A stretch of 33,284 nt of DNA, taken from assembly GCF_003601925.1 (NCBI RefSeq), contig NZ_QZWH01000062.1:1-33284 (forward strand), read 5' to 3'. Below, piece by piece: positions 16,147 through 19,469 of this stretch (the first letter of the stretch is position 1; each line of letters opens with the position of its first letter). Below the pieces are notes generated by a model, which saw nothing but the letters and a program-made list of their open reading frames with translations, ran no database searches and was not told the origin of the DNA. Both the position numbers and the translations under genes were made by a program. The stretch comes from Buttiauxella izardii. GTDB taxonomy: Bacteria; Pseudomonadota; Gammaproteobacteria; Enterobacterales; Enterobacteriaceae.

Positions 16147-16183
16147 TTGCGACTAAAACGATTTCTCGTATAATGCGCCTCCC
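16147..16183 (+). promoter_or_regulatory. Promoter of the tRNA-Gly operon with GC-rich discriminator
   Basis: TTGCGA (16147-16152), a 16-bp spacer and a perfect TATAAT (16169-16174) are followed at once by GCGCCTCCC. That discriminator matches the GCGCCNCC pattern of stable-RNA promoters under stringent (ppGpp/DksA) control. The first mature tRNA begins 42 bases after the -10. Confidence 0.8.
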
Positions 16184-16215: not shown

Positions 16216-16291
<76 letters not shown>

Positions 16292-16358: not shown

Positions 16359-16434
<76 letters not shown>

Positions 16435-16470: not shown

Positions 16471-16546
<76 letters not shown>

Positions 16547-16816
16547 AATTCTAATCTTCAGTACAAATTATCCACAACGCTAAGTCGCGTCGGTGGTGGT
16601 TTTTACGTTCCTCATAAACTCTTGTAAACAGACTTATCCACAGCTTCTGTCTATTCACTTAGATCGCTAATTATTTATTAACTTTTACATGATTAATTTA
16701 AATAATTGATTTTGTTGATTTTTTAAATGTTTAGAAGTGTTAACTGGATCGCTTGCAGAATTTATTTTGCTGATGGGATAAGGCTTTCAAAATTTTATTC
16801 ACATCCTGTGGACATG
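16547..16816. promoter_or_regulatory. datA: datA-like DnaA-binding locus
   Basis: This gene-free AT-rich stretch between tRNA-Gly and queG has three full DnaA boxes on the plus strand: TTATCCACA at 16568-16576 and 16634-16642, and TTATTCACA at 16795-16803. A weaker one with two mismatches lies on the minus strand at 16807-16815. Between the second and third boxes is a perfect IHF consensus (TAA-N4-TTGATT, 16699-16711). E. coli datA, which promotes hydrolysis of DnaA-bound ATP with help of IHF, lies in the same place beside the glycine tRNA genes. Sequence motifs are seen directly; function is inferred from synteny. Confidence 0.82.
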
Positions 16817-17956
16817 TTACGCGTCCCGTTTCAGCCCCTTTTCAATGACTCTAACCAGACGTTGCTTTTGCGGTAACTGAACTTCCGTTGCGTTAGCGCT
16901 TCGCTTGCTTAATTGTTGCGCAATCGCCCAATCAATATGCTCATCAAGAAGTGGGTGCTCACCTTTTCGCTGTTGCAGCGCTTCCAGAATCGCTTCATCC
17001 CACGGTGCATTTCCTAATGCGACGGCAATATTTCGCAGCCAGCGTAAATGACCAATGCGGCGAATCGCTGAACCTTCGGTCACGCGCAGGAAATATTCTT
17101 CATTCCACGCAAACAGTGCCACCAGCTCCGGCGCATGCAACTTGCTGCGCGGGCTAAAGTCATCTTCTGTGGTTAGTTGTGAGAAACGGTTCCACGGGCA
17201 AATCAGCTGGCAATCGTCACAGCCGTAAATTCGGTTGCCGATGAGCGGCCTGAATTCTTCCGGGATAGCGCCTTCAAGCTCGATAGTGAGATAGGAAATA
17301 CAACGACGGGCGTCGACCGTGTAGGGTTCGACTATCGCGCCGGTCGGGCAAATAGTCATGCAGGCCACGCAGCGCCCGCACTTTTCCTCAACCGGCTTAT
17401 CAACCGGCAACGGAATATCGACTAATAATTCTCCGAGGAAAAAGAACGATCCCGCTTCTTGATTCAAGATAAGTGAGTGCTTACCTGTCCAACCAAGGCC
17501 CGCTTTCTCAGCCAGTGGGCGCTCAAGAATCGGCGCTGAATCCACAAAAGGTCTAAAATTCAGCGTGGAACAGTGGGACTGGATCATTTCACCCAGTTTT
17601 TTGAGCCGGTTACGCAGCAGTTTGTGGTAATCGCGCCCGAGGGCGTAACGGCTGATATAACCGATTTTGGGATTTTTAAGCGTCGAGGCAAAGGCCGCGT
17701 TTGCCGGGAGATAGTTCATCCGCACGCTAATCACGCGCAGTGTGCCCGGCAGCAATTCGTGTGGGCGCGCGCGCATCATGCCATGACGAGCCATCCAGTC
17801 CATCTCGCCGTGGTATTGTTTATCCAGCCACAACTGGAGCGCAGGTTCACTGGCGGTGAGATCGGTATCGGCAATTCCCACTTGCTGGAAGCCGAGTTCG
17901 ATTCCCCACTGTTTGATATTTTGCGCTAATTGATTGAGATCGAGGGGCTGTGACAT
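16817..17956 (-). CDS. queG: Epoxyqueuosine reductase QueG
   Basis: Catalyses the last step of queuosine synthesis, reduction of epoxyqueuosine in tRNA to queuosine, using cobalamin and two [4Fe-4S] clusters. The 379-residue protein shows the ferredoxin-like cysteines C193, C196, C199, C203 (CGRCVACMTIC) and C219, C246, C249, C253 (CDDCQLICPWN). A HEAT-like C-terminal region (HLRWLRNIAVALGN) follows. The start MSQPLDLNQLAQ gives the E. coli length; a 24-residue extension is rejected. Its ATG and the nnr ATG share two bases on opposite strands. Its 3' end borders the DnaA-box region. Confidence 0.97.
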   Translation of the reverse strand: MSQPLDLNQLAQNIKQWGIELGFQQVGIADTDLTASEPALQLWLDKQYHGEMDWMARHGMMRARPHELLPGTLRVISVRMNYLPANAAFASTLKNPKIGYISRYALGRDYHKLLRNRLKKLGEMIQSHCSTLNFRPFVDSAPILERPLAEKAGLGWTGKHSLILNQEAGSFFFLGELLVDIPLPVDKPVEEKCGRCVACMTICPTGAIVEPYTVDARRCISYLTIELEGAIPEEFRPLIGNRIYGCDDCQLICPWNRFSQLTTEDDFSPRSKLHAPELVALFAWNEEYFLRVTEGSAIRRIGHLRWLRNIAVALGNAPWDEAILEALQQRKGEHPLLDEHIDWAIAQQLSKRSANATEVQLPQKQRLVRVIEKGLKRDA

Positions 17957-19469
17957 GACGGACCTGAGCCTAAAAATAACCGCCAAAAGTATACCACATT
18001 CAGTCTGGTCAGCAGACTGGTTGCGCACCGCAGAAAAGCAGGCGGCGGATGAATTAGGGTTAACGCTTTATGAATTAATGCAACGGGCGGGCGCTGCTGC
18101 GTTTAATCTCGCCCGTGAGCTTTATCCGCAAAGCCAGCACTGGTTGGTCGCATGCGGGCATGGCAATAACGGCGGCGATGGTTATGTGGTGGCGCGTCTG
18201 GCGCAGGCTGCTGGCGTGCGCGTTACGCTTGTCGCGCTGGAAAGCGATAAACCGTTACCCGAAGAAGCGGCCACTGCGCGTGATGCCTGGCTGGACGCCG
18301 CAGGTCTGATTCATGCGCCGGAACATCCATGGCCTGCTGATATTGATCTAGTGGTTGACGCTATTCTTGGCACCGGCCTTACACAAGCGCCACGAGATAA
18401 TGCCGCAAATCTTATCGAGAAATGTAATCAGCATCCTTCTCCTGTGATTGCGCTGGATATTCCTTCGGGCTTGCTCGCAGAAACGGGTGCAATTCCCGGC
18501 GTTGCAATTAACGCCGCTCACACTATTACGTTTATTGCCCTGAAACCGGGGCTACTCACCGGCAAAGCACGTGATGTGGTCGGAAAGTTACATTTCCATG
18601 CGCTCGGGCTTGAAGAGTGGCTGAAAGGGCAGACTGCGCCGATTATCCGCGTGGACAGCGCACAATTATCGGGCTGGTTGCCGCCGCGCAAACCCACGTC
18701 ACACAAAGGCAGTAACGGGCGATTGGTGATCATCGGTGGCGATCACGGTACGGCGGGTGCGATTCGCATGACGGGCGAAGCGGCGCTGCGAACCGGAGCA
18801 GGTTTAGTCAGAGTTTTGACGCGTTCAGAAAATATTGCGCCACTGCTGACGGCTCGGCCTGAATTAATGGTTCAGGAACTCACGCCACAAACGCTGGATG
18901 AAAGTCTTGAATGGGCCGATGTCGTCGTGATTGGCCCAGGATTAGGGCAGCAAGAATGGGGCAAAAAAGCCCTACAAAAAGTAGAGAACAGCCGTAAACC
19001 GATGCTGTGGGATGCAGATGCGCTTAACCTTCTGGCAATCAATCCCGATAAACGTCAGAATCGCGTGATTACGCCGCATCCTGGCGAGGCCGCACGGTTG
19101 TTAAATTGCACCGTGTCACAAATTGAGAGTGACCGCTTACTTGCCGCAGACCGCCTGGTAAAACGTTATGGCGGAATTGTGGTCTTAAAAGGTGCCGGTA
19201 CGGTTGTTGCCAGCCAAAATGGCGAATGCTCCATTATTGATGTGGGCAATGCCGGAATGGGCAGCGGCGGGATGGGGGATGTGCTCTCCGGAATCATCGG
19301 GGCATTGCTGGCACAGAAGCTAACCCCGTATGATGCAGCAAGTGCCGGATGTGTGGTTCATGGCGCAGCCGCTGATGTGCTGGCTCATCGCTTCGGCACG
19401 CGTGGCATGCTGGCGAGCGATTTATTATCGACGTTGTACCCTTTTGTTAACCCGGATTTGAATAGCTAA
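17955..19469 (+). CDS. nnr: Bifunctional NAD(P)HX epimerase / dehydratase
   Basis: Repairs hydrated NADH and NADPH. The N-terminal YjeF domain (about 1-215, with GHGNNGGDGYVVARL) epimerises NAD(P)HX. The C-terminal ribokinase-like domain (about 225-504) uses ADP to dehydrate it, with GGDHGTAGA, the phosphate region NAGMGSGGMGD and a preceding GPGLG. The 504-residue length is close to the E. coli protein (515), and the tail is shorter. GAGGGG lies seven bases before the ATG. It is the first gene of the nnr-tsaE-amiB-mutL-miaA-hfq-hflXKC cluster, and its promoter probably lies inside queG. Confidence 0.96.
   Translation: MTDLSLKITAKSIPHSVWSADWLRTAEKQAADELGLTLYELMQRAGAAAFNLARELYPQSQHWLVACGHGNNGGDGYVVARLAQAAGVRVTLVALESDKPLPEEAATARDAWLDAAGLIHAPEHPWPADIDLVVDAILGTGLTQAPRDNAANLIEKCNQHPSPVIALDIPSGLLAETGAIPGVAINAAHTITFIALKPGLLTGKARDVVGKLHFHALGLEEWLKGQTAPIIRVDSAQLSGWLPPRKPTSHKGSNGRLVIIGGDHGTAGAIRMTGEAALRTGAGLVRVLTRSENIAPLLTARPELMVQELTPQTLDESLEWADVVVIGPGLGQQEWGKKALQKVENSRKPMLWDADALNLLAINPDKRQNRVITPHPGEAARLLNCTVSQIESDRLLAADRLVKRYGGIVVLKGAGTVVASQNGECSIIDVGNAGMGSGGMGDVLSGIIGALLAQKLTPYDAASAGCVVHGAAADVLAHRFGTRGMLASDLLSTLYPFVNPDLNS

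Follow-up and report, generated by a model that had tools for sequence, protein, structure and literature searches.

What is the 270-bp gap that separates the glycine tRNA genes from queG in Buttiauxella izardii, and does it contain datA, the E. coli site that promotes hydrolysis of the ATP bound to DnaA, as an earlier note on this DNA had proposed? Judging from sequence comparison, we consider it very probable (about 0.9) that the interval is the Buttiauxella ortholog of datA, acting by IHF-assisted DnaA-ATP hydrolysis. A datA locus by itself is expected in Enterobacteriaceae; the value added here lies in a map of constant versus lineage-specific parts and in a Vibrionaceae variant, which is the novel lead of the comparison.

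The interval (positions 16547-16816, 32% GC) lies in what we call the window, the whole 33,284-bp stretch of DNA that was analysed, a contig of the 4.77-Mb Buttiauxella genome. It is bounded by the end of the last tRNA-Gly gene (16546) and by the queG stop codon (16817-16819, minus strand). Three tRNA-Gly(GCC) genes, the counterpart of glyV-glyX-glyY, were identified by ARAGORN and Rfam on the plus strand at 16216-16291, 16359-16434 and 16471-16546. They are preceded by a putative sigma-70-type promoter (TTGCGA, 16 bp, TATAAT; 16147-16174, plus strand), found in a consensus scan that returned 4 such sites versus 1.6 expected. Convergent with them, on the minus strand, is the frame of queG, epoxyqueuosine reductase (16817-18028), assigned from the open reading frame, the annotation of the syntenic E. 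coli region and its relatives; the protein is 95-96% identical to those of Buttiauxella sp. B2, A111 and B. brennerae, and the true start is probably inside the open frame. The layout rsgA-orn-tRNA-Gly x3-queG-nnr is common to the window and E. coli, the window names other than queG coming from ORF reading and synteny, and the interval therefore occupies the same place as E. coli datA, as had been claimed. Elsewhere in the window, positions 2925-2969 match the guanidine-II riboswitch (Rfam RF01068, 43.5 bits).

Could the DnaA boxes of the interval be nothing but a chance cluster of AT-rich words beside tRNA genes? Exact matches to TTATNCACA start at 16568, 16634 and 16795, all on the plus strand, and matches without mismatch occur nowhere else in the window; the three full-consensus boxes in one direction, and their spacings of 66 and 161 bp, had thus been read correctly in the earlier note. 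With one mismatch allowed the window contains 22 matches versus 21.4 expected, and therefore only exact matches are informative. Across the whole genome exact TTATCCACA occurs 52 times versus 14 for the reversed control pattern. The perfect IHF consensus that had been placed at 16699-16711 is likewise a true match to WATCAANNNNTTR, on the minus strand. The window holds 4 matches to this consensus versus 1.04 expected, so that the IHF match is weak by itself and needs support from conservation. Chance can thus appeal to the low GC content and to the presence of the IHF consensus, on either strand, in 4.9% of the 20,000 dinucleotide-shuffled versions of the interval. Against this, none of 20,000 shuffles of the 270 bp contained even two exact same-strand boxes and 410 contained one, which argues that the box cluster is not due to chance, and the arrangement is moreover conserved across loci. 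Given these results, the probability of a chance cluster is negligible.

The syntenic region of E. coli strain QDFD216 aligns across the whole interval, and box order, strand, IHF orientation and spacing all match, in line with the proposed likeness to E. coli datA. Two of the three consensus boxes correspond to those essential in E. coli: box 2 (TTATCCACA, 16634-16642) and box 3 (TTATTCACA, 16795-16803, 161 bp after box 2), both on the plus strand and identical in the E. coli alignment. The remaining one (16568-16576, plus strand), which had been counted with them as part of the datA set, is box 1, reported to be dispensable for DnaA-ATP hydrolysis in E. coli (PMC10950094); it has the full consensus in the window (TTATCCACA) and one mismatch in QDFD216 (ATATCCACA). 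The earlier inventory was right in the boxes that it listed, but it missed box 7 (TTGTAAACA, 16622-16630, plus strand), which lies 3 bp before box 2 and is identical in E. coli, where it is of low affinity and essential for the hydrolysis, termed DDAH (PMC5742627, PMC5835720). Also unlisted was the degenerate box 4 (ATGTCCACA, 16807-16815, minus strand), recognized in the E. coli alignment and the locus comparison. Boxes 7, 2 and 3 (16622, 16634 and 16795) all run in one direction, as in datA. The box 7/box 2 stretch matches the datA double box cTTGTAAACAgagTTATCCACAg listed by DnaA ChIP-seq in E. coli (PMC11317965), and the third base of the spacer is the sole difference between the window's CTTGTAAACAGAcTTATCCACAG, which contains box 7, and E. 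coli.

Between boxes 2 and 3 lies a single predicted IHF-binding site (AATCAATTATTTA, 16699-16711, minus strand), assigned from the consensus. It starts 65 bp after the start of box 2 in both Buttiauxella and E. coli and is on the same strand in both, whereas box 2 to box 3 measures 161 bp versus 162 in E. coli and IHF site to box 3, start to start, 96 bp versus 97. This site is exact in all 11 congeners. Box 4 differs from that of E. coli datA, having two mismatches where E. coli (TCATCCACA) has one, and the same sequence is found in 11 of 11 congeners; in E. coli it stimulates DDAH in vitro and is not essential in vivo, and it is not a required feature (PMC5742627). Searching 5,426 E. coli genomes with a 601-bp query identified, in 5,374, a place covering at least 80% of the query at 60-80% identity. 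A further difference concerns an annotated 17-aa E. coli reading frame over box 3 (MRFYFYSQAVDESGVTR, L002:2880-2933), presumably yjeV. Its ATG aligns with AGG at window positions 16781-16783, leaving no start codon in Buttiauxella, and for this reason the frame may not be a real gene in E. coli.

Other DnaA-box clusters resemble the interval in part. E. coli oriC likewise has a low-affinity box followed 3 bp on by a consensus box (cTTCCTGACAgagTTATCCACAg, PMC11317965) and an IHF site between boxes, yet the stretch between boxes that includes the IHF site is shorter there than at datA, and DnaA-ATP hydrolysis is not observed at oriC (PMC5742627, PMC10380432). DARS2 is also an intergenic DnaA-box cluster with IHF; however, its core boxes are opposed, it contains Fis sites, and it reactivates DnaA rather than inactivating it (PMC13036160, PMC10380432). 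On contig C4 of the same genome a DARS2-like double box adjoins a mutH-like ORF, named by eye.

How would such an element work? From the E. coli work we infer DnaA and IHF binding, looping, hydrolysis and control by read-through as follows. IHF on 16699-16711 would sharply bend the DNA, so that the DnaA molecules bound to boxes 7 and 2 meet those bound to box 3 some 160 bp further on; a head-to-tail oligomer of ATP-DnaA would then hydrolyse its ATP and release ADP-DnaA, lowering the initiation potential once the locus, about a tenth of the chromosome from dnaA, is duplicated. Box 1 and the tRNA attenuator hairpin, sharing sequence, would limit read-through into the IHF site. The protein partners are encoded by the same genome. 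IhfA and IhfB are both over the cut-off, and DnaA carries the motifs RLKSRFGWGL and NVREL, which we take to hold Arg281, Arg285, Leu290 and Arg334 of the E. coli numbering. Roles of these residues in E. coli DnaA are described in PMC5742627. Because the assembly of the window is in 91 contigs, the near-origin position was read from two congeners (G008 and G011), in which 0.52 Mb (contig of 5.14 Mb) and 0.53 Mb (contig of 5.22 Mb) separate datA from dnaA, the second value assuming a circular contig. This distance of about 10% of the chromosome is like that in E. coli, where datA is at 94.7 and dnaA/oriC at 84.6 min (PMC5742627).

A question remains, which of these parts are under selection? We compared 45 loci having an exact box 2: the window, one E. 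coli record and 43 Enterobacterales queG loci, the latter a selection, as they were taken from the best 80 of at least 597 queG relatives. The spacing between boxes 2 and 3 is 159-165 bp in all 45, and so in 43 of the 43 queG loci, extending to other Enterobacterales the geometry noted earlier for Buttiauxella; it is 161 bp in 29 loci, and 159, 160, 162, 163, 164 and 165 bp in 2, 2, 3, 3, 5 and 1, respectively. Box 3 is an exact TTATNCACA in 42 loci and has one mismatch in three, and box 1 is exact in 23. Box 7 is within one mismatch of TTGTNAACA in 34 loci; in eight loci of Xenorhabdus, Photorhabdus, Morganella and Proteus it has 3-4 mismatches, other words ending in CACA being found there. 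At 64-67 bp after the start of box 2, 36 of the 45 loci match the IHF consensus with no more than one mismatch (0.53 expected from shuffles), and 18 of these match it exactly (0.01 expected). The other nine, three Enterobacter, Silvania, Kluyvera, AwEntero, Pragia, Limnobaculum and Sodalis, have 2-3 mismatches at this place; in Proteus the match at this place has one mismatch, and an exact one is located at +46.

Information content, calculated from 17 representatives that all have the 161-bp spacing (one for each genus or unclassified isolate, E. coli thus left out), follows the same parts: 2.0 bits per base for box 2, 1.78 for box 3, 1.61 for box 7 and 1.19 for the IHF site, with 0.78 for box 1, 0.55 for box 4 and 0.74 for the 173 other columns; as these genera are related, the values do not count as independent evidence. 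The 9-mers with the highest conservation fall on boxes 7, 2 and 3 and on the bases that immediately precede box 3.

This pattern bears on whether the locus is purely a titration site, whose boxes sequester DnaA and whose IHF geometry goes unused for hydrolysis. Titration was the role first ascribed to E. coli datA (PMC5835720), and three consensus boxes would bind DnaA anyway; the degenerate box 4 and the full-consensus box 1 of the window also suit titration. Yet titration needs neither a fixed spacing nor an IHF site, and distant genera keep both the 159-165 bp and the IHF match at +64 to +67, with the low-affinity box 7 among the best-conserved 9-mers. We consider pure titration improbable and favour a datA ortholog active in DnaA-ATP hydrolysis. 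The dissection of datA in the accessible literature is that of E. coli, and the natural variants, with 159-165 bp spacing and with or without box 1, box 4 and the tRNA operon, or with the enlarged loop of Vibrionaceae, now suggest which parts are under selection. They also make it testable whether the geometry of the IHF loop or the number of boxes sets the rate of hydrolysis.

The locus comparison revealed, in addition, a conserved block between the IHF site and box 3, GTTA....GATCGCTTG in the window (16739-16755, plus strand). Lying between box 7 and box 3, it falls inside the minimal datA of 183-187 bp. The block GTTA....GATCRCTTG ends 39 bp before box 3, and GATCRCTTG is placed 48 bp before box 3. 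In the 17 representatives GATCRCTTG averages 1.56 bits and GTTA 2.0; the informative positions of the IHF site average 1.47 and the 173 other columns 0.74, and the block is about as conserved as the IHF site. Over the 45 loci GATCRCTTG is exact in 24 and has two or more mismatches in 19; the block as a whole has at least four mismatches in loci of Pantoea, Xenorhabdus, Photorhabdus, Pectobacterium, Pragia, Morganella, Proteus, Limnobaculum and Tenebrionibacter. The accessible portion of the datA literature yielded no protein or RNA role for this block and no alignment of datA beyond E. coli, which does not prove absence in print.

When 394 genomes of the order were searched for the box 2-box 3 pattern, 30 of 34 members of the window's family had one copy each, and the other four are genomes of at most 1.2 Mb; control matches numbered 6, in 5 genomes, all outside this family. 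With a stricter pattern, 122 of 198 family genomes were positive, one of them with two copies, and reversed-pattern controls gave none. By eye, the stricter pattern is present in 118 of 124 genomes of at least 3 Mb versus 4 of 74 smaller ones. Six genomes below 3 Mb that were examined also gave no queG match, and for this reason absence from small genomes says little. Among the six larger misses, two (genus g175) have the box pair, with a mismatch in box 3 and a spacing of 164 bp. In another, G490 (L188), queG is broken into three frames and a datA-like box pair is kept beside it at 154-bp spacing, which is consistent with selection acting on the site as such. The element seems to be lacking from two larger genomes: in G456 queG is present and the box pair is not, and in G423 (L187) queG is cut and 0.9 kb of sequence shows no boxes. 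Behind orn, G423 has a tRNA-operon-like promoter followed by a queG match ending at residue 286; a deletion or a collapsed assembly seems to have removed the tRNA genes, datA and the 3' end of queG. G534 gave no queG match.

At the level of the order, 23 queG loci were inspected, and the AACAGA-TTATCCACA pair was found only in families f5 (161 bp), f11 (165 bp) and f21; 7 of the 30 genomes of the order examined gave no queG match. A pair of TTATCCACA boxes 146-176 bp apart in family f8 (L133-L146), in some cases with an IHF-like word between, is not at queG and was rejected as datA. TRAP-type permease ORFs lie on one side of it; on the other, some genomes have a polA-like ORF and the remainder different ORFs (all named by eye). 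Since a DnaA double box is listed for E. coli polA too (PMC11317965), we read the f8 pair as a polA-linked DnaA site, perhaps related to the one upstream of E. coli polA. Other order-level matches, for example those of family f6, look like oriC or coding matches.

Is the tRNA operon a part of the element? For IHF to leave datA in E. coli, transcription reading through from glyV-X-Y is reportedly necessary, and the terminator/attenuator overlaps box 1 (PMC10950094). The window has the same layout: a terminator/attenuator-like hairpin follows the last tRNA gene at 16561-16606 (plus strand; RNA fold of -15.8 kcal/mol, z -2.46), with a T run and with box 1 in its 5' arm. A ten-pair stem was aligned over 18 of the 26 near-tRNA loci, those left out, two Serratia, two Rahnella, Rouxiella, Yersinia, AwEntero and Edwardsiella, folding differently. 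In it 81% of cells are paired versus 35-58% in slid controls, and four pairs show changes on both sides; the stem was drawn from single-sequence folds of the same sequences, and its lower part fits Buttiauxella less well, being shifted by one. One of five measures, that of pair types, is not above shuffles (116 of 500), and RNAalifold alone proposes only the four upper pairs. Only 29 of the 45 loci have a same-strand tRNA-Gly gene no more than 145 bp from box 2. It lies at 240-506 bp in four, two contigs are too short to tell, and in ten loci (Pectobacterium, Brenneria, Sodalis, Pragia, Limnobaculum, two Photorhabdus and three Xenorhabdus) it is absent from the 1.2 kb searched. Given this distribution, and provided that datA is active in those species, its control is unlikely to depend in general on tRNA-Gly read-through, and whether such read-through is a general or a lineage-specific timer has become testable.

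The hairpin also raises the thought that boxes and stem serve mainly in transcription, DnaA and IHF forming roadblocks at which tRNA-Gly transcripts stop and which protect queG from convergent transcription. Box 1 does sit in a terminator-like stem with some covariation, and in E. coli IHF and box 2 attenuate read-through (PMC10950094). Such a role, however, does not fit a box 2-box 3 core present in all 45 loci when the tRNA genes are near in only 29, nor the box pair still present beside the broken queG of G490. We hold a mainly transcriptional role to be still less probable than pure titration, and the ortholog of datA remains the preferred reading.

Does datA extend beyond Enterobacterales? 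Among the best 80 of at least 597 queG relatives are 19 loci of Vibrio, Photobacterium and Enterovibrio (L076, L077, L079, L082, L084, L085, L087-L091, L095, L096, L098, L100, L103, L105, L110 and L112), in which the region downstream of queG was inspected. In all 19, on the corresponding side of queG, there is a box 7/2-like pair in which a word that ends in ACA precedes TTATCCACA by 12 bp. A TTTTCCACA-type box in the same direction follows at 273-281 bp; it is exact in 17 loci and has one mismatch in two. An exact opposed box is present in 17, at +18/19 or +55, and an IHF match with at most one mismatch at +121 to +125 in 13 (0.18 expected), the other six lacking one. The spacing is larger than in E. 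coli datA: in place of 65 and 162 bp, the distances are about 121-125 bp to the IHF match and 273-281 bp to the second box, the latter falling to about 262 bp in part of genus g45. Both arms are about 57-60 bp longer than in Enterobacterales. In the same set of relatives, 18 of the 37 more distant queG loci (Pseudidiomarina, Shewanella, Alteromonas, Pseudoalteromonas, Oceanimonas, Moritella and others) showed neither a datA-like box pair nor the Vibrionaceae-like arrangement.

The Vibrionaceae element may be a long-loop datA, or else another kind of DnaA site that occupies the same place. The chances seem to us evenly balanced that datA predates the split of Enterobacterales and Vibrionaceae, in which case the long-loop variant (box 7/2 pair, opposed box, IHF site at 121-125 bp and TTTTCCACA at 273-281 bp, by queG) would inactivate DnaA through an IHF loop with arms about 57-60 bp longer, and several Enterobacterales datA would work without an adjacent tRNA-Gly promoter evicting IHF. 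No report of a DnaA-type datA in Vibrionaceae was found in the accessible literature, which is no proof of absence in print; two Vibrio-related papers use datA as an analogy for RctB sites (PMC3937223, PMC6090056). The variant makes it testable whether the two-chromosome Vibrionaceae employ DDAH for chromosome 1. In the matching family, a genome-wide search for the double box together with TTTTCCACA gave no control matches and identified the pattern in 110 of 121 genomes, as one copy in 109 and as two in one.
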